Source of the DNA: Pusillimonas sp. DMV24BSW_D
GTDB taxonomy: Bacteria; Pseudomonadota; Gammaproteobacteria; Burkholderiales; Burkholderiaceae_B
Assembly (NCBI RefSeq): GCF_011388195.1
Contig: NZ_CP049990.1
Coordinates: 2,418,001 to 2,482,000, forward strand
DNA length: 64,000 nucleotides
Reading direction: 5' to 3'
The first letter of the stretch is position 1. Every line of letters begins with the position of its first letter. The translations under genes were made by a program, and so were the position numbers. The notes beneath the pieces were generated by a model. That model did not search any database. It saw nothing but the letters and a program-made list of their open reading frames with translations, and was not told the origin of the DNA. This document shows positions 6,798-53,812 of the stretch, one piece after another.

Positions 6798-7793
6798 TCA
6801 AGGCTCCTGTTCAGGCTCAAGGGACGGTTCTGCATTACTTGCCCGCCAGGCACTCGTTAACCCAGGCACATAGGGCAAATCAAACAATCCACTGGTTTGT
6901 GGGTTCTTCGGAGGTGAGGGTTGCAAACTGGGTAAACCACGCGCTTTGGTGTTTCCGTAGATAACCGGTGCACGTTTACGGGCGAAGGTATAAGGCGCCG
7001 GGCGGGCCACGCCCAGCAAACTGGCCAGATCCCCCCGCACCGCACGTTGCGACGCATGAATGTCATCCTGGCGTCGAAGGACTGCGGTAATCGTTCCCCC
7101 TTGACGCGCCGCCACCAGCTTCACAGCATCTTCCGGCGAGGTATCCAGGGTGACGGTGGAAAAGCCTCCCAACCGCGAAACACCCGAACCCGCGGTGTAC
7201 TCATCTTGCGCGAGCCCATTCCCCACCTGCTGCACCTGAGTACCCGTGGCTAATACCAAAACGCCTTGCAGTAACGGTGCAGTGATCCGTCGCCGCTGAT
7301 AATCAAACGACACATACAAGTCAATTAAGTCTCCCGGGCTGAGTAGACCGGAAACCGAATTAATTACATCAACCGGCAACGTAATTGCCCGACGCCCTTT
7401 CTGAAGACGTGAAGAAAATGGCGCAGTTGACTGCAAACGCGTGTGCGCCTCAAGAACGGGATCTCCTGCCTGCAAATCGACCCGCAACGCCCGTCCCACC
7501 AGCAGCATATGTGTTTCCGGCGAAACGCTATCACTGGAAACAAGATGGGCGGGGTACGCACGAGTAGCCAAATGCTCAGATTCAATAATGACGCCGGCGG
7601 CCAAAGGGCGGGCTGCCACGACCCGTTGCACCATGGGCACAGCCGCCTGTTCCGCCAATTGGCGCTCCCGGCTATTCAGATGCTGCTTCGCCGTTAAAGC
7701 GGCCAGCACGCCGGAACCAATCGCGACGGCTAGAATGACCCAGGTGCGCAAAGAAATCGCACGCCGGCGCATAAATACAGGATGGTTCATCAT
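6798..7793 (-). CDS. cpaB: Flp pilus assembly protein CpaB/RcpC (SAF domain)
   Basis: CpaB/RcpC proteins are periplasmic partners of the Tad secretin. From ATG 7793 the product is 331 residues: one N-terminal membrane anchor (ISLRTWVILAVAIGSGVLAAL), a SAF domain about 50-120 (VVAARPLAAGVIIESEHLATRAYP; VGRALRVDLQAGDPVLEAHT) and the CpaB core (RAITLPVDVINSVSGLLSPGDLIDLYVSF; STVTLDTSPEDAVKLVAARQGGTITAVLR). The start overlaps the previous stop as ATGA and is preceded by AGGAG at a spacing of about 7, which is why I reject the longer upstream frame. The proline-rich C-terminus is low in complexity. Confidence 0.9.
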   Translation of the reverse strand: MMNHPVFMRRRAISLRTWVILAVAIGSGVLAALTAKQHLNSRERQLAEQAAVPMVQRVVAARPLAAGVIIESEHLATRAYPAHLVSSDSVSPETHMLLVGRALRVDLQAGDPVLEAHTRLQSTAPFSSRLQKGRRAITLPVDVINSVSGLLSPGDLIDLYVSFDYQRRRITAPLLQGVLVLATGTQVQQVGNGLAQDEYTAGSGVSRLGGFSTVTLDTSPEDAVKLVAARQGGTITAVLRRQDDIHASQRAVRGDLASLLGVARPAPYTFARKRAPVIYGNTKARGLPSLQPSPPKNPQTSGLFDLPYVPGLTSAWRASNAEPSLEPEQEP

Positions 7794-28467: not shown

Positions 28468-28512
28468 AAAACCCCCGAAGGTTGGATACATGTCCAACCT
28501 TCGGGGGTTTGT
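28468..28512. terminator. Strong bidirectional terminator between pobA and ppa
   Basis: AAACCCCCGAAGGTTGGA / TCCAACCTTCGGGGGTTT, an 18-bp perfect stem with a 6-nt loop; A-run before and T-run after serve both strands. Confidence 0.93.
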
Positions 28513-44645: not shown

Positions 44646-47600
44646 TTAAAAACGATAGGTTAGCCGTGCATTCAGGTTCTGAGAACGATAGCCACCGCCC
44701 GCCTGCAGACCATATTCGGCGCTAAAGCTAAGATTATCTTCACGTGCAAACTCCACGCCCAGGCTTAAGCGGCCCAAAACAGAGGGTGTGTCTTGTTCAG
44801 ACGTAAACGTTCCGCTTGATATTAAGGCTTGATTAAAGCGATTTTGACTGCTGTGCTTGGCATCGGAATACATTCTCACGCCGACGCCGGCATATGCCCG
44901 CATCAACGTTTCCGGGCCCACATCGAAAGACGCTCCCGTTTCAAGGGTGGGGCTGAACACGATTTGTGTCTGCTTGGCCGAACCCACCTCTAACTGCAGC
45001 GGCCCTGAATCCGACTCGGTAAATGAAGGGCTGCGGCTGTGTAATACATCCACATCCACCAACGGTCGCAGATAATAATTGTTGAAACTCATGTTGTATG
45101 CCGCACGTAAACGGACGCCCAACAAGGTTGTGCGAGAGCGGCTGCTATAGGTGGCGTTCAAGCCCCGAGACGCGCCGCCCGACCCAAAATCAACTGTACG
45201 GTCATTGTGGAATCGGCCATGCGCTGCCATCACCGCACCGGAAAACGTCCAGTTCCCCACATCGCGAGACAAGGAAACCGTTGCATCGAACGTATTGCCC
45301 TTGCTGCTGAACCCCGTGGAGGTGAGCCGGTTGCGGTTCACGCCAAAGGCCGACCCTAGGGTCACCACGTTGTTAAGCGCGCGTTGTGCGCCCATACGCA
45401 CCCCGCCACCCTCGGAGCTGAATCCCAGGTTTTCAGATTGTTCAGTCTGACGCGTGTGATTACCCGTAGCTTCAGCCCACACACAACCCTGCGCACGGTG
45501 ACGTACCCCCATGCCGTCACGCGGGCATCGCAAGGCGTCATTGAAACCATCAAAAGAGGAAGCGACCATCTGCTGGGTTTGCGCCTGAAACTGCTGACCA
45601 CCCAACTGCTCCAGCGTTTCCTGATATTCCTCGCTTGATTCAACATGATGCAAATGGGCAAACAATGCCGCTTTGGCGATATCGGCTCTTTGCCAACCAC
45701 GGGCAAGATAATCAGCTAGGCTGGCGGCCGTGCCCGTTAAATTCAAATGCACGCCATTGAAATTGGCGGTCGGGCCTGCCGAGAGGCCCGTTTTGCTCGC
45801 CACGGGGACCCAGTCGTAAATCAGGGAGTCGGCAAAGCGACCGGTAAAGTTCAAATTCGTGGCATCAATAAATGAATACGACCCGGGCAACAGCGTGTTT
45901 GCATAAACCTGGACCTCTCCACCAAGATTGGCCGTGCCGTCGACGATGAGTTTGTCATGCTTGGCACCACTGGCCGCTGCATCAACCGTAAACACCAGCC
46001 GCCCACCTTCATATTGATGCATAGTGCCATAAAGAGTGGTGGTGGAAACAGACTGCTCGGTCCCCACCTGCAGGGTGCCGTAATTATGCAGACTGTTGTT
46101 CCCCACCCGGTAAATATTGCCCATTTCCAACGTGCCGGTATGCTTATTGGTGAACGTGCCTGGCGTGGAACCCATGTCGACACTACCCGTTATAACGCCG
46201 GAATTATTGATATTGGTTAAGCCATGATCCGTTTTAATCGCGTATCCGCTTGAGGTGTTGCCGGACAATACCCTGCCATTGACGTTAATCGTGTTTGCAA
46301 AGCCCGAATCTTTTACCGCACCGCCCATCACCATAACGCCCACGCCGTCCAGATGATTCCCGGTAATCGGGCTGTTCCCCGTATGTCCGCCGATGACATC
46401 GCCATCTACCTGCACAGTGATGCCTTTTTTATCATGATTGGCATATTGGCCGGAGCTCTGGGCCAATATGCCAATGCCACCGGTTGCATCAGTGAAAACA
46501 GACGCATTATTTTCAACTGTGATGGTAATGGCGCCACCATAACCATCACTGACTGAATTGTTTTTACCGTCGAACACCAATTTATCACCGTCGCTGCGCA
46601 ACCCACCCGCTGAACCCAGACTTTGAGCCACGATACCGTGCGCGTTGGCAACCGACGTCATGCCTGTACCCACATTAATATTGGACCCCGACCCGACCGT
46701 TATATTGATATCTCCACCGTGTTGCCCACTTTTGCGAGAGGAAGATATCCCGGTATTTTCAAATGTCACCTCACCCGCCAGGTCGGCCAACACACCACCG
46801 CCAGACCCAACCGACTGCGCCAATACACCCCAGGCGCCATGACCGCTCGTGTTAACGGTAACGTCGCGCAAATCAACCAGAATGTCACCGCCGGTACCGC
46901 CGTTGATCCCGCTAATGGTGGCACTCTCAATATGCTCGTTATGGGTGGTAATGTAACCGCCGCCACCTCCAATTGACTGGGCCATAAAGGCGGGGCTGCG
47001 GTTACCGCTAGTTGTATATGTACCTGCACCTGGAAGCAACGAGACGGAACCGCCATCACTCCAGGCGCCACCCTGAGGCGAAATATTCAACTTGTAGCGC
47101 TGTTGCCGATTCACAAACCGCTTCGGCACATCCGTAAATGGCGTGTCGGACGTCGCAGTCTCAGCATTCGTATGGCAAGCGCTGGTGGCTTGTGATGTAC
47201 TTAATCCGCTATTCGTACAACCCATGGTAGCCGTGCCCCCAGCGCCACCCACGGATTGGGCAAAAATGGCGGCGGCATCGTCACCAGCAGTGGTTATCCA
47301 AGCCCGTTGGGAAGCGGGCTTGGAAGGAGCGCCATAATAAATTTCGCCCCCCTTACCGGATGCTCCTGAACTACTCGGCGCTTTACCCAACGTAATCGCT
47401 GGCACATCGGCGCCTGCCAATTTTTCACCAAGGCCGAAAATCGAGCCTTCATGCCCTACGCCACCGCCACCGCCTACCGACTGCATAAAAACAGCATGCG
47501 ACGCATAGCCGGCCGTCGTAATAAAATTATCACGCTGATTGCTGCCAAAATTGCCGGTATGCACGGAAACCGCACCACCATCACCGGCAGCACCGCCACC

Positions 47601-50600
47601 ACCCCCTACATTGATACCCAGGGAAAAATCAGCACCGGTCAACGGGCTTAACTCCGCATCGGCGTCCAGAATGGCGTCGCCTGTAGCTTCACCTGCTTCA
47701 CCACCACCACCCCCTACTGATTGGGCAAAAATACCGTAGGAACGATGGCCTTGCGTAACGATTTGCGCACCTTTTTCCAGCGTCACCTCGACATCGCCGC
47801 CATTACCGCCGGCGCCCCCTGTGCCGCCTACAGCCAACGAAACGGAATACGATTTCGGGAACTCATGCTCCTTTTTCTCCCAATTCACAACACGGCTGGC
47901 AATCCACAAAATGGTGCCTTTCGCATCCATGATTTTATTGACATCGTCAATAATGGTTTCAGCCAAATCGGGCAGAATACTTTTTGCCGGGTCGGCATTA
48001 CCAGCCATACCGCCACCCCCGCCAATGCTTTGCGCCACAATCCCATGAGAACTGCCGCCTAAGGCAATAGGAGTGGTCAATGCCGTTTTGCCTGAATCAG
48101 TTTGATATTGCACCTGGTAACGTCCGCCCGTTGTGATTTTGCCGGAATGCGAAACCGATACATTGCCACCATGATGCCCGGATCCGCCATCACCGCCCAC
48201 AGAAACTTTCGTCGTAAGTTTGCCGCCAATGCCCTGGCTACCTGCATTTCCTGCCACACCACCACCGCCGCCCACGCTTTGCGCAACCAAAGCAGGCGCG
48301 CCCGAACCCAGGGTACTTAGAACGGCATCACTATGAGTGGTCGCCGTGATACTGCCGCCCGTAGCACCGCTGCCCCCATTGCCGCCGGCACTTAAATCCA
48401 GTTGGTAATTTTTTTCTTCCAACGGAATGGCCACCACGCTAGCCGCATTACCCACACCACCGGCACCGCCGCCGCCACCAATCGACTGCGCAAGAATCGC
48501 CAAAGCCCCATGACCGCGTGTGGCTTGGGTACCGGATAAACCCAGGACAATGGCGCCGCCTTTTCCACCCGCGCCACCGTCACCGCCTAAGCCCAACGTA
48601 GTATTCATGGTGAATTCATTGTTGGCCAGAATAGCCGCTGCACCTGCTGTGGCATCACCCCCGACGCCACCGCCACCCCCTACGCTTTGCAATACAAAGC
48701 CGTGGGAAAACGCACCGCGAGTGGTCATGTTGTTGGCAAGGTCAAAATTAATTTTGCCGCCATTGCCGCCCATGCCGCCGGTACCGCCAACCGCAATGCC
48801 CACGTTAATATTGGGCACTTCCGGAATCGACAACGTAGAAAAGGCATCGGCCGTAGAGGCGCCCCCAACACCACCGCCGCCGCCAATACTTTGCAGCAGC
48901 ATGCCAATGGCATCGTGCCCCGTTGTAATAACGTCGCCGAAAGACGAAGCCGCCGACGTGTCACTAACGCCTTTAATATCGCCGCCGTTACCGGCATGGC
49001 CGCCATCGCCCCCCACACCCAGGGCCACGTTTAAACCGACACCGCCATCGTAACTGTGCGCCGCGCCACCCTTGCCACCACCGGAGCCAATGGTGTGCGC
49101 CACCACCCCGTGGGCGTGCCGCCCGGACGTGATAATGGTGCTGGTTTGATCTGACCCAGATGCCTTCAGACCTCCAAACTCAAGCGCTCCCCCGTTACCT
49201 CCAATACCGCCTCGGCCACCAATCGATGTCGACACAGGGGTCCCCATTGAATAAGAACTGGAATGCCCTCCGTTTCCGCCCCCGCCACCAATCGATTGCA
49301 GCACGACGCCTTGGGCGTAAGAACCTTCAGTTTTAATAATGGCGCCGTTCTGCTGTGAAAAACTAACTGTACCAGCGTCACCCCCATGACCGCCGTGCCC
49401 CCCTACGGCCACAAACAGGCCTCTGGCATTTCCGCCGTTACCACCACCGCCCGCAATAGATTGCATTAACAAACCCGTTGCGCCGGCACCTTTTGCGGTA
49501 ATTTGGCCGCCATCGCCCTTATACGTTACCGCGCCGGCCGTACCACCCGCACCGCCGGAGTCACCAATAAACGACAACACGCCACCACTGGCACTGGCCC
49601 CATTGCCGGCGATCGACTGCGCCAGCACACCAATAGCGCCGCTGCCCAGTGCCGTAATACTGCCTTTGTTTTCTATAGTGACATTACCCACCTTGCCTGG
49701 ACTCGACATCGAGCTGGGGGCCGTACCTAAAAATGGCTGGCTGCTCCAACCCACCGCACTGTTAGCCAGAATGCCGATCGTCGTATCCGTTGCGGTTACG
49801 GTGTCTGTCGTGTTCCCAACTGACACGGAACTGCCGGCGTCGAGCGATACCAGCACATCTCGATAGCTGTTACCCGATATGCGAAAGCCTTTACCACTGC
49901 TGGGATTCTGGGCCGTACTGGTAGCAACAAGCCCAATTGTGTTGGTGCTGCCAAGGTTAACGTGTGCCGCTTCCAGCTTAAGGGTCACGTTGCTGCCGCC
50001 GCCCGACGGGGAAGCGTGCAGATCGCTAATGTCAGACTGCGTGGCCGCACCCACGCTGGCGGCAACCAGGCCAATTGAGTAAGGCTTACTTCCTTTAATC
50101 GTTCCTTGGAAGGTGACATCCACAATGCCGCCCTTGCCATTACTGCCGGCACCACTGATGTAATTATTAATCGTGCCTTTACCGCCTTGCGACAAGGCCA
50201 GCAGCCCCACCATGGGAGAATTTGCAGAGGCATTGACATTCAATGTTAAGTTGTCGGCAGAGTGAACAGACACATTGCCGCCAAAAGCGCCATGCAACGC
50301 CACGGTGCCCTCATTAGTAGCCTGCCCGCCTTTGGACATGACCGTCACCAAAGCGCCGCCTGCTTCCCAAGGAAGGCTGCTGCTTCCCTGCGCCAAATTG
50401 CCTGAACCAGTAATAGACGAAGTGCCATACGACTCATAGGAGACGGCTCCACCATCATACCCACTGCCCACGCCATCTGAATGGCTGCCATCGGCCCCTT
50501 GCGATCGGAAGTGATAAACGCTGGTTGGACCGTTATTACCCGTCGCATCGAACTTGCCGTCGTCAAGCGACGCTTCAACCCGGATACTTTGCACCTCGAT

Positions 50601-51008
50601 ATCAAGATTAGGCCCCACACCACCGGTCGTATGATGTGAGTTCTGAACGCCACTACCAATGATGGACACGTAGTGATGCTGAGGTTTGCCTGTTAAGCGC
50701 GCAATCGAAACGTCGTTATATAAATTTGACAGCGTTGCACTCATCGACAAAGGCGCTTTTGCCGGGTCGTTTTGAAAAGTCAACCACTGCTTTTGAAAAT
50801 CAGAGTTTTCATTCAGCGCCAACGTCGCAGAAAACCCTGAATTGACATCAATATTAGTATTCGGCGCAACAATTAAATTGTTAATCATCCACTGAAGCGA
50901 AGCGACAGACTCATCCGTTTCCACCTTGGCCGTCCCCGCCTGCACGCCGGCCGCATACGCAAACAAAGACATCAACACAACATTGGGCAACAACAACGGC
51001 TTTTTCAT
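44646..51008 (-). CDS. Giant glycine-rich autotransporter (type Va secretion), 2,120 residues
   Basis: A signal peptide (MKKPLLLPNVVLMSLFAYAAGVQA) is followed by a passenger of about 1,800 residues and a C-terminal autotransporter beta-barrel (about 1,840-2,120; it includes CVWAEATG, GGVRMGAQRAL and ends LNARLTYRF with terminal Phe). The passenger has about 16 copies of a motif of the form (A/G)-hydrophobic-x-x-QS(I/V)GGGGG, such as GVVLQSIGGGGG, GMLLQSIGGGGG, AILAQSIGGGGG and GIFAQSVGGGGG, at 60-110 residue spacing, each followed by a glycine-rich GGxGG turn. This predicts a long beta-helix on the cell surface. Adhesion or aggregation is likely but not shown. It lies downstream of a response regulator and kinase gene pair. 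Its translation start is in a hairpin (51011-51038). Confidence 0.92.
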   Translation of the reverse strand: MKKPLLLPNVVLMSLFAYAAGVQAGTAKVETDESVASLQWMINNLIVAPNTNIDVNSGFSATLALNENSDFQKQWLTFQNDPAKAPLSMSATLSNLYNDVSIARLTGKPQHHYVSIIGSGVQNSHHTTGGVGPNLDIEVQSIRVEASLDDGKFDATGNNGPTSVYHFRSQGADGSHSDGVGSGYDGGAVSYESYGTSSITGSGNLAQGSSSLPWEAGGALVTVMSKGGQATNEGTVALHGAFGGNVSVHSADNLTLNVNASANSPMVGLLALSQGGKGTINNYISGAGSNGKGGIVDVTFQGTIKGSKPYSIGLVAASVGAATQSDISDLHASPSGGGSNVTLKLEAAHVNLGSTNTIGLVATSTAQNPSSGKGFRISGNSYRDVLVSLDAGSSVSVGNTTDTVTATDTTIGILANSAVGWSSQPFLGTAPSSMSSPGKVGNVTIENKGSITALGSGAIGVLAQSIAGNGASASGGVLSFIGDSGGAGGTAGAVTYKGDGGQITAKGAGATGLLMQSIAGGGGNGGNARGLFVAVGGHGGHGGDAGTVSFSQQNGAIIKTEGSYAQGVVLQSIGGGGGNGGHSSSYSMGTPVSTSIGGRGGIGGNGGALEFGGLKASGSDQTSTIITSGRHAHGVVAHTIGSGGGKGGAAHSYDGGVGLNVALGVGGDGGHAGNGGDIKGVSDTSAASSFGDVITTGHDAIGMLLQSIGGGGGVGGASTADAFSTLSIPEVPNINVGIAVGGTGGMGGNGGKINFDLANNMTTRGAFSHGFVLQSVGGGGGVGGDATAGAAAILANNEFTMNTTLGLGGDGGAGGKGGAIVLGLSGTQATRGHGALAILAQSIGGGGGAGGVGNAASVVAIPLEEKNYQLDLSAGGNGGSGATGGSITATTHSDAVLSTLGSGAPALVAQSVGGGGGVAGNAGSQGIGGKLTTKVSVGGDGGSGHHGGNVSVSHSGKITTGGRYQVQYQTDSGKTALTTPIALGGSSHGIVAQSIGGGGGMAGNADPAKSILPDLAETIIDDVNKIMDAKGTILWIASRVVNWEKKEHEFPKSYSVSLAVGGTGGAGGNGGDVEVTLEKGAQIVTQGHRSYGIFAQSVGGGGGEAGEATGDAILDADAELSPLTGADFSLGINVGGGGGAAGDGGAVSVHTGNFGSNQRDNFITTAGYASHAVFMQSVGGGGGVGHEGSIFGLGEKLAGADVPAITLGKAPSSSGASGKGGEIYYGAPSKPASQRAWITTAGDDAAAIFAQSVGGAGGTATMGCTNSGLSTSQATSACHTNAETATSDTPFTDVPKRFVNRQQRYKLNISPQGGAWSDGGSVSLLPGAGTYTTSGNRSPAFMAQSIGGGGGYITTHNEHIESATISGINGGTGGDILVDLRDVTVNTSGHGAWGVLAQSVGSGGGVLADLAGEVTFENTGISSSRKSGQHGGDINITVGSGSNINVGTGMTSVANAHGIVAQSLGSAGGLRSDGDKLVFDGKNNSVSDGYGGAITITVENNASVFTDATGGIGILAQSSGQYANHDKKGITVQVDGDVIGGHTGNSPITGNHLDGVGVMVMGGAVKDSGFANTINVNGRVLSGNTSSGYAIKTDHGLTNINNSGVITGSVDMGSTPGTFTNKHTGTLEMGNIYRVGNNSLHNYGTLQVGTEQSVSTTTLYGTMHQYEGGRLVFTVDAAASGAKHDKLIVDGTANLGGEVQVYANTLLPGSYSFIDATNLNFTGRFADSLIYDWVPVASKTGLSAGPTANFNGVHLNLTGTAASLADYLARGWQRADIAKAALFAHLHHVESSEEYQETLEQLGGQQFQAQTQQMVASSFDGFNDALRCPRDGMGVRHRAQGCVWAEATGNHTRQTEQSENLGFSSEGGGVRMGAQRALNNVVTLGSAFGVNRNRLTSTGFSSKGNTFDATVSLSRDVGNWTFSGAVMAAHGRFHNDRTVDFGSGGASRGLNATYSSRSRTTLLGVRLRAAYNMSFNNYYLRPLVDVDVLHSRSPSFTESDSGPLQLEVGSAKQTQIVFSPTLETGASFDVGPETLMRAYAGVGVRMYSDAKHSSQNRFNQALISSGTFTSEQDTPSVLGRLSLGVEFAREDNLSFSAEYGLQAGGGYRSQNLNARLTYRF

Positions 51009-51010
51009 TC

Positions 51011-51038
51011 ACATTCCAGCAACGATTTGCTGGAATGT
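51011..51038 (-). promoter_or_regulatory. 12-bp perfect hairpin covering the autotransporter Shine-Dalgarno
   Basis: On the mRNA strand ACATTCCAGCAA-ATCG-TTGCTGGAATGT ends 2 nt before ATG 51008. The only SD-like bases, GGAA (5 nt from the ATG), are inside the 3' arm. No T-run follows, so it is not a standard terminator. Translation should be weak unless the hairpin is opened. Confidence 0.75.
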
Positions 51039-51063
51039 GCCACAGCATGCACTCTAACGTCAG

Positions 51064-51089
51064 TCTCAATTATCTCAATTGTCTCAACG
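51064..51089. repeat. Three 9-bp-period direct repeats before the autotransporter
   Basis: TCTCAA occurs at 51064, 51073 and 51082 (TCTCAATTA, TCTCAATTG, TCTCAACG). On the coding strand this is TTGAGA repeated every 9 nt, 56-81 bp before the ATG. A candidate response-regulator site or promoter element. Confidence 0.5.
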
Positions 51090-51113: not shown

Positions 51114-51809
51114 TTAATCCACCAGGAACACAATACCCTTGCCGAACACCACCCGAATCGGCAAAGGAAACTGCGCCTTGCGCGCCTTATTTCGCAAACG
51201 GCTTAACACTACGTCAATGCGGTGCGTGTCGGGCTCTTCATGAAAGCCGAAAAGATGTTCGTGCAAATACGTTTTATCGCACACTTCATTGGGATAGCGC
51301 ATCAACGTTTCCAACAAGCGCGTTTCTTGCTCTGTTAACCGTAAATTTTGTCCTTGAGGCGCCACCAAGAACGAATCACGCAACGCCCACGCTAATGTTT
51401 CACTATTGCCGGCGCCGCCAAGATCGCTCTCGTGCGTTAATCGTTGCCACAACCGCGCCAGCACAATCGCCAAATCGGCAAAGTTCACTGGTTTCACCAA
51501 ATAGGCATCGGCACCGAGCGCCAGTCCGCGTGCTCGATCGGCTTGAGCACCACGCGCACTCATCACCACCAAACCGTACGCCCCCAGTCCACGTAAATAC
51601 TCCAGCACACTAAAGCCGTCTTCTCCCGGTAAACCAATATCGACCAACACAATATCCACCGGGGCGGCATGCAGGTGCCTCCAAAATGCCTCTGCACTAG
51701 GCACGGCCCAAACCGAAAACCCCTTCGACTCCAGGAAAAAAACCAGTTCCTCCTGAAGCCCCACGTTATCCTCAATAATTGCAATCCGTGCCTGACGCCC
51801 TGCCTTCAC
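51114..51809 (-). CDS. OmpR/PhoB-type response regulator
   Basis: A 231-residue two-component regulator. The receiver domain (about 8-122) has the acidic pair EDN, the phospho-acceptor Asp in VDIVLVDIGLPGEDG, the Thr/Ser in VVMSARG and Lys in LVKPVN. The C-terminal winged helix (about 150-231) is of the Trans_reg_C type: RLTEQETRLLETLMRYPNEVCDKTYLHEHLFG and HRIDVVLSRLRNKARK. GTG start with GGGGAG upstream. The kinase gene lies 35 bp upstream and the autotransporter 105 bp downstream, in the same direction. Confidence 0.92.
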   Translation of the reverse strand: MKAGRQARIAIIEDNVGLQEELVFFLESKGFSVWAVPSAEAFWRHLHAAPVDIVLVDIGLPGEDGFSVLEYLRGLGAYGLVVMSARGAQADRARGLALGADAYLVKPVNFADLAIVLARLWQRLTHESDLGGAGNSETLAWALRDSFLVAPQGQNLRLTEQETRLLETLMRYPNEVCDKTYLHEHLFGFHEEPDTHRIDVVLSRLRNKARKAQFPLPIRVVFGKGIVFLVD

Positions 51810-51844: not shown

Positions 51845-53812
51845 CTATTCACCGGGTATAAACAACTTAAAACAACTGCCTTCAACGGAACTGTGTGCCA
51901 GCACCAAATCACCGCCGTGTGCTCGCGCGATCTGGCGCGCAACATATAAGCCCAGGCCGGTGCCACCAGGGTCTTCCCCACCGCCCGCTTCGTCTTTCGA
52001 TGCATGACGCCGATAACGTTCGAAAATAATATCGGCATCAGCGGCGGCCACACCTTTACCCCGGTCGCGAACCGAAATGCAGACAACACCACCTTCAATA
52101 TCGGACGTACACATCGTCACATCGATATCCACCGGCCCTTGTTCACTGTATTTGACCGCATTGTCGAGCAAATTCGACAATGCGATACGCAACATCGCCT
52201 GGTCGGCAAAAACCGAAATATCAAAACGCAAATTATGTTGGCGTTCCTCACCATTCACCGACAAACGCCACCGATGCCGCTCAGACCGATCCACTACCTC
52301 GGTGGCGGATCGCACCATATCCAGCACATTCACTTTATCGCGCTGCAACGTTAGCCGGTCCGCGTTCAAACGCGAATCAGCCAAACAATTGTCGGTAAGC
52401 TGAACCAACCTATTCGTGGCCAGCCGCATATTGCGGTATCGACGCCGGCGCTGTACGTCGGAAATAGACTTCAATTGCAAATTCTCTAGCGCGCTTGAAA
52501 TAACCGCCAACGGATTGCGAAACTCGTGCGCGACCATGCCAATAAACTGGCGTTGGTGAAAGCTGGCTTCGCGCTCGATATCAAGCTCACGCGCCAACTG
52601 AACGCGACTTTGCGCTTCCCGTGACTCTCGTCGTACAAGCAAGGCCACCCAGGCAAGTATCGTGAACATATTAACCATAATCACGTACTGCCATATGCCA
52701 TACACCGTTTCATCGTACGGAATCCAACCGAATAACGACGCCAATGCCAGCAAACCGGAAATGACATACAGCATAGGCATTAAGCCCACCACCAACGTCA
52801 TCACACCGCTTTGTGCATCGCGCCAAATCGTCCAGGCACTGATAGCTAACACGACGGCAGTCACAATAAATACAACACCCTGAATATTGATGGCCAAAGC
52901 ATAAAAATCAAACGGAATACTAACTTGCAAAAAAAGATTCAAACCAATAATGAACCACATCAGCCGATTCAAGCGTGGATGATGCTTGCGCAAATCCAGC
53001 GCCTCGGTGGCCAGCCAAAGCAGGCTTGTATACGTTAGCAGGGTAAGAATACCGGTTAAATAGTGCTGAATCAGTGCAAAGTGCGGGCGCAGCATCCAAT
53101 CGACAAAACCCTGTATGCAGGCCACAAGCCAATAAGATAACGAGAACGCCAGCAGCGCCCACACCAATCGTCGACGCAAATAAATGGCTGCAATCAGCGC
53201 CAAAATACTTGAGAACGCCGCCAAACCGAAATAAAAGCCCCAGAATGCGGTACTTCGGGTTGAGGCTTGAACAAAAGCGCTGGGCGACCACAACGACGCC
53301 TGCAACAATACAGCGCTGGTACTTTGCACTCGCACCAGCACTTCATACCCAGCTTGATCGTCCAGCGCCGGTAAAACATAGACAGGAAAACGATAGTCAA
53401 TTTCCCCGCGGGCTTGGGGCCACCGATCCCCCGTTTGGCGAACCACCCAAGGGTGCGGATTTTCGACTACTTGTGGCCCAGCGCTGGGCCGATAAAACAA
53501 GGTGACGTCATCCAAAAAATTGGGCCGTAACTGTAACCAACGCGCCTCGCTACCTACCGGAGCGAAAAAACGGACCCACAATGCCGAACGTGTGTATCCC
53601 AAGGATAAAACGTGATTACTGGTTTTGATTTTCTCGTATGGCAATGCCAGGAACTCATCCACCGCAAGCGATCCGTCGACATCTTCATACCACTGAAATG
53701 CAATGCCTTGCCCCAAGGTGGTCTGCGCAACGGCGACCTGCCCCCATGCCGAGGCAAAGGCGAAACATGCCAAGATCAATAGGGTGTTGAGGACTTTGCC
53801 AATAAAACGCAT
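51845..53812 (-). CDS. Sensor histidine kinase with 7TMR-DISM sensor
   Basis: A 655-residue kinase. A signal peptide (LNTLLILACFAFASAWG) precedes a periplasmic 7TMR-DISMED2-like beta domain (about 40-180; NHVLSLGYTRSALWVRFFAPVGSEARWLQLRPNFLDDVTLFY), which often binds small molecules such as carbohydrates. Seven membrane helices follow (about 185-390). The cytoplasmic part has HisKA with the H-box GMVAHEFRNPLAVISSALENL, then the N box LSNLLDNAVKYSE, G1 VRDRGKGV and G2 GTGLGLYVARQIARAHGG. Its partner is the adjacent regulator. The likely target is the autotransporter, from location. Confidence 0.93.
   Translation of the reverse strand: MRFIGKVLNTLLILACFAFASAWGQVAVAQTTLGQGIAFQWYEDVDGSLAVDEFLALPYEKIKTSNHVLSLGYTRSALWVRFFAPVGSEARWLQLRPNFLDDVTLFYRPSAGPQVVENPHPWVVRQTGDRWPQARGEIDYRFPVYVLPALDDQAGYEVLVRVQSTSAVLLQASLWSPSAFVQASTRSTAFWGFYFGLAAFSSILALIAAIYLRRRLVWALLAFSLSYWLVACIQGFVDWMLRPHFALIQHYLTGILTLLTYTSLLWLATEALDLRKHHPRLNRLMWFIIGLNLFLQVSIPFDFYALAINIQGVVFIVTAVVLAISAWTIWRDAQSGVMTLVVGLMPMLYVISGLLALASLFGWIPYDETVYGIWQYVIMVNMFTILAWVALLVRRESREAQSRVQLARELDIEREASFHQRQFIGMVAHEFRNPLAVISSALENLQLKSISDVQRRRRYRNMRLATNRLVQLTDNCLADSRLNADRLTLQRDKVNVLDMVRSATEVVDRSERHRWRLSVNGEERQHNLRFDISVFADQAMLRIALSNLLDNAVKYSEQGPVDIDVTMCTSDIEGGVVCISVRDRGKGVAAADADIIFERYRRHASKDEAGGGEDPGGTGLGLYVARQIARAHGGDLVLAHSSVEGSCFKLFIPGE

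Follow-up and report, generated by a model that had tools for sequence, protein, structure and literature searches.

The autotransporter gene that lies behind a kinase-regulator pair in the analysed DNA (the window, a stretch of 64,000 nucleotides) appears to be transcribed from a promoter embedded in the 5' arm of a hairpin that seals its ribosome-binding site. It is proposed, tentatively, that only transcripts started at this promoter by the two-component system, and not those reading through from upstream, would yield the autotransporter. A translation lock that depends in this way on the start site is regarded as the best explanation of the locus, with a confidence that is no more than moderate. 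The features involved are the following:

44646-51008, minus strand: autotransporter of 2120 amino acids, with a signal peptide, a Gly-rich passenger and a Pfam autotransporter beta-domain (PF03797)
51010-51039, minus strand: perfect 13-bp hairpin with a 4-nt loop, from sequence, local fold and shuffles
51025-51027, minus strand: predicted transcription start, placed 7 nt past the -10 hexamer
51034-51041, minus strand: GGCACATT, conserved, consisting of the proposed -10 hexamer CACATT (51039-51034) and an upstream GG, from comparison and -10 score
51058-51063, minus strand: -35-like CTGACG, overlapping the last box, with an 18-nt spacer to CACATT, from sequence
51062-51085, minus strand: three tandem 9-bp GAGANNNNN boxes, proposed from comparison as the site of the adjacent OmpR-type regulator
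51114-51809, minus strand: OmpR-type response regulator, with receiver and Trans_reg_C domains
51845-53812, minus strand: 7TMR-DISM histidine kinase

In the proposed mechanism, the DNA of the hairpin's 5' arm also serves as the -10 region of a promoter. The neighbouring OmpR-type regulator would switch this promoter on by binding the three 9-bp GAGA boxes, which overlap the -35. RNA made from it would begin near 51027, without the 5' arm, and its translation would use a leader of about 19 nt. RNA that enters from the kinase-regulator operon would contain both arms, fold into the 13-bp hairpin and have its ribosome-binding site sealed. The large surface protein would then be made in dependence on the activated regulator, and expression of the regulator operon alone would not suffice. 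The position of the promoter is well supported by the comparison of related sites; the regulator presumably binds the boxes, and we infer the start site, the read-through, and the repressive or guard function.

The kinase, regulator and autotransporter genes all lie on the same strand, with 105 nt between the end of the regulator gene and the ATG of the autotransporter, and a terminator scan detected no terminator in this gap. Among named records, Neopusillimonas maritima comes closest, with 94% identity in the regulator. No paralogous autotransporter with the same leader was found elsewhere in the genome.

On the minus strand the hairpin reads CACATTCCAGCAA (51039-51027), loop ATCG, TTGCTGGAATGTG (51022-51010), followed by a single A (51009) and the ATG (51008-51006). 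The first-pass annotation had described a perfect stem of 12 bp ending 2 nt before the ATG; the perfect hairpin is real, with 13 bp and only 1 nt left before the start codon. It had also stated that the Shine-Dalgarno-like bases are buried in the stem, and GGAA (51017-51014) indeed lies within the 3' arm. The local fold has an energy of -20.7 kcal/mol (z = -4.2), and none of 200 shuffles was equally stable. Perfect hairpins of at least 12 bp with a loop of 3-8 nt, counted within the 64-kb window only, occur at four loci, this one among them; 40 dinucleotide-shuffled versions of it contained none. The absence of a T-run reported by the same annotation was confirmed on the mRNA strand, where a terminator scan of 51300-50900 was also empty; with no U-tract behind the stem, an intrinsic terminator is ruled out. 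A dispersed palindromic repeat is likewise ruled out, as the inner 22-base motif of the hairpin has no other copy at up to 1 mismatch genome-wide (the next best match has 2), and a known RNA family by the lack of an Rfam match at the hairpin. Elsewhere in the window, positions 28469-28510 hold a perfect 18-bp hairpin, AAACCCCCGAAGGTTGGA/TCCAACCTTCGGGGGTTT, which is probably a bidirectional terminator.

The evidence for a promoter in the 5' arm comes from orthologues of the regulator, identified both within the genus and across the family. A common layout was found at nine sites in seven genomes: three GAGANNNNN repeats (GAGA, with a 9-bp period), then 20-21 nt, then GGCACANT; the last of the three units continues as GAGACTG. 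Seven of these nine sites, including that of the window, are directly downstream of regulator orthologues, and the remaining two precede the Pollutimonas autotransporter and an amidohydrolase gene in genome G004. GGCACA is present in eight of the nine (the ninth has GAAAAACT), while nAnAnT at the hexamer is common to all; past the hexamer the sequence is not conserved across the sites and the column information falls. When a -10 matrix of approximate frequencies was summed over seven sites (one per near-identical pair), the best position was that of the CACATT hexamer, with 1.74, and the next non-overlapping offset reached -1.11. Against the proposal, CACATT agrees with TATAAT at only 3 of 6 positions. 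The combination of the box and GGCACA was found in only 7 places, in 6 genomes, among 268 genomes of the family, and a reversed control gave 0. Because relatives keep the outer 5' arm without the hairpin, it must be conserved for a reason besides pairing; GGCACATT, the outer part of the arm, has the appearance of a -10 element in a promoter that the regulator activates. Sites of the OmpR family usually have a period of 10-11 bp. The triple GAGANNNNN box, seen in several Alcaligenaceae at promoters that follow an OmpR-type regulator gene, has a shorter period of 9 bp.

A start 7 nt past the -10 hexamer would coincide with the final base of the 5' arm, 51027, and folding of nested transcripts indicates what this position would mean for translation. 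For RNAs starting at or above 51039, the stretch from the Shine-Dalgarno bases through the AUG has a predicted open probability of about 1e-10 to 1e-12 (around 1e-11 at 37 C); for starts at 51027-51023 the value rises to 4e-3 to 7e-2, with 4e-3 at 51027 itself. The same trend of accessibility with start site is predicted for the sister species, where the stem is weaker. As only upstream starts are sealed in these folds, the hairpin would act only in RNA derived from upstream. The first-pass annotation had taken the start of the autotransporter mRNA itself to be locked, and had set against its own reading a transcription start downstream of the 5' arm; the comparison of nine promoters predicts just such a start, around 51027, with the -10 in the 5' arm. 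What stands of the proposed RNA lock on translation is the predicted sealing of the Shine-Dalgarno bases and AUG in transcripts begun upstream, so that the earlier interpretation is, as a whole, partly supported. A stem beside an ATG need not be part of the mRNA.

The hairpin itself is confined to this autotransporter. Only two box sites, those before this gene in the two sister species, form a hairpin from the conserved element, and none was found at the folded box sites of relatives with a different gene behind the regulator. Since these relatives have a different gene in the same place and do without the guard, the guard would belong to this autotransporter specifically. The lack of a guard in these relatives, the restriction of the hairpin to two species and the weaker stem of the sister count against the proposed lock. 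Pollutimonas encodes an autotransporter of this kind elsewhere, inverted and on the far side of an adjacent gene, with the boxes still in front. This gene is divergent from its upstream neighbour and has no hairpin, which agrees, in one case, with what the guard model predicts.

In addition, several observations were made on the wider family of loci. In Pusillimonas noertemannii (G227), the regulator has a receiver 68% identical and an output domain of AraC type, not of OmpR type, and no box was found in that genome, which counts in favour of the proposed mechanism; the orthologue (L045:5986-6894) adjoins an autotransporter, a swap of output domain at the same locus. The amidohydrolase was considered as a universal second target and rejected, as its boxes are present only in G004 and Pollutimonas (G225) and were not found in G000, G001 and G003. 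In Pollutimonas (L042:6983-12670), the box-controlled amidohydrolase gene adjoins an autotransporter gene, and the homologue in the window's genome (G000:C1:3122535) follows the apparent end of another outer-membrane beta-barrel gene. This suggests a recurring pairing of the amidohydrolase with an outer-membrane beta-barrel or autotransporter gene.

Four explanations other than the start-site-dependent lock were considered. The hairpin could be a by-product with no regulatory role: the promoter would fix the 5' arm, the ribosome-binding site would fix the 3' arm, and replication would have matched the two through templated correction of a quasi-palindrome. Relatives do without the hairpin, the outer arm and the stretch from the Shine-Dalgarno bases to the ATG can each be explained alone, and the sister has an imperfect version (-13.2 kcal/mol, z -1.5), in which all differences in the stem are between imperfect and perfect pairing. 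With respect to the window, the sister stem has two substitutions that leave G-U pairs and one inserted base, and its stretch from the Shine-Dalgarno bases to the ATG is unchanged. These differences are compatible with RNA pairing, but their number is too small for proof, and they are compatible with templated correction too. Against a by-product stand the pairing over the ribosome-binding site, kept in both species, and 13 perfect pairs, far above chance; this explanation is considered unlikely, though deserving of some weight. The same changes bear on a DNA operator, in which the 30-bp palindrome would bind a dimeric repressor across the -10 and +1. A perfect palindrome does cover the presumed -10 and start, but the genome has no second copy of it at up to 1 mismatch, and the inserted base and two changes of the sister copy break the DNA symmetry while the G-U pairs of the RNA are kept, which leaves an operator very unlikely.

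A conventional RNA switch, where the mRNA would normally contain the whole hairpin and be opened by an sRNA, a protein, a helicase or temperature, is also improbable. It agrees with the predicted sealing of the Shine-Dalgarno bases and AUG in any transcript started upstream, and a second promoter-like pair, TTACCA/GATAAT, with a start around 51062, would place the whole hairpin in the mRNA. However, GATAAT (51074-51069) is present in the window only, the sister having GACAAT; GGCACATT is conserved where the hairpin is absent and scores as a -10; and there is no Rfam match. ROSE and FourU RNA thermometers are imperfect, marginally stable helices. The present hairpin resembles them in having the Shine-Dalgarno bases in a stem near the AUG, but is perfect and very stable: the predicted cost of opening is about 15 kcal/mol for 37 C and hardly less, 14 kcal/mol, for 42 C. 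The thermosensor, one of the kinds of switch put forward by the first-pass annotation, was rejected as unlikely on this ground, as a helix without mismatches and of this stability is not expected to open in the physiological range. Least probable of all, to the point of being nearly negligible, is that GGCACA forms the -24 element of a sigma-54 promoter (TGGCAC-N5-TTGC). The window and the sister do have TGGCAC with a correctly spaced GC, but the -12 GC is absent at the other GGCACA sites, so that GG at -24 with GC at -12 is not a conserved pair, and the AAA+ domain that sigma-54 activators possess is missing from the regulator. As a separate observation, it is a single base change in the second box that makes GATAAT (51069-51074), possibly a new constitutive promoter within the regulator site.

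The proposed start-site-dependent lock has counterparts in phage T4. In the long upstream transcripts of gene e (lysozyme) and soc, a hairpin seals the ribosome-binding site, and gene e has its own late promoter in the 5' strand of the structure, giving transcripts without the hairpin (PMC3014915). The genes of I-TevI, I-TevII, I-TevIII, segB and Aeh1 mobE similarly have a promoter nested in a hairpin that sequesters the ribosome-binding site, and their read-through transcripts are silenced (PMC2988022). In T4 gene e and the T4 endonuclease genes alike, the nested promoter is a late one, and it is the early read-through RNA that stays silent. Two hallmarks of the gene e type recur at the present locus: the hairpin is predicted to pair the Shine-Dalgarno region beside the AUG in long transcripts, and comparative evidence points to an own promoter in the DNA of the 5' strand. 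Transcription might also run through the gene from the same-strand kinase and regulator genes, which end 105 nt upstream with no terminator found, and the native transcript would start past the 5' arm. The nesting proposed here is that of gene e and soc and of the endonuclease group. It differs from the former, which have a T4 late promoter and mapped starts, in involving a proposed chromosomal promoter activated by a two-component system, with a predicted start; the latter are phage homing endonucleases, several of them demonstrated experimentally, whereas here a chromosomal gene and a prediction are concerned. Transposase genes of IS10 and Tn5 are protected from outside transcription by fold-back, where read-through RNA hides the start site and the native transcript does not. 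Those are mobile elements, and the fold comes from the ends of the element, unlike the chromosomal surface-protein gene considered here.

If the proposed lock is true, it would be a T4-style case in a bacterial chromosome and would solve the problem of a costly target gene that immediately follows its own regulator with no terminator between them, separating the making of the regulator from that of its large surface target. The comparison further provides a concrete layout of DNA boxes and promoter for a 7TMR-DISM/OmpR system in Alcaligenaceae, of which no earlier description was found. In the part of the literature covered, nothing useful appeared on chromosomal cases of the same layout or on 9-bp boxes of the OmpR type, which is weak evidence.

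The gene behind the proposed lock has also changed between the sister species in an uneven manner. When window 50500-51005 is set against 6804-7300 of the sister locus, the region coding for the signal peptide is about 96% identical, and the first part of the passenger, right after it, diverges sharply, as if this segment had been exchanged or were under diversifying selection.
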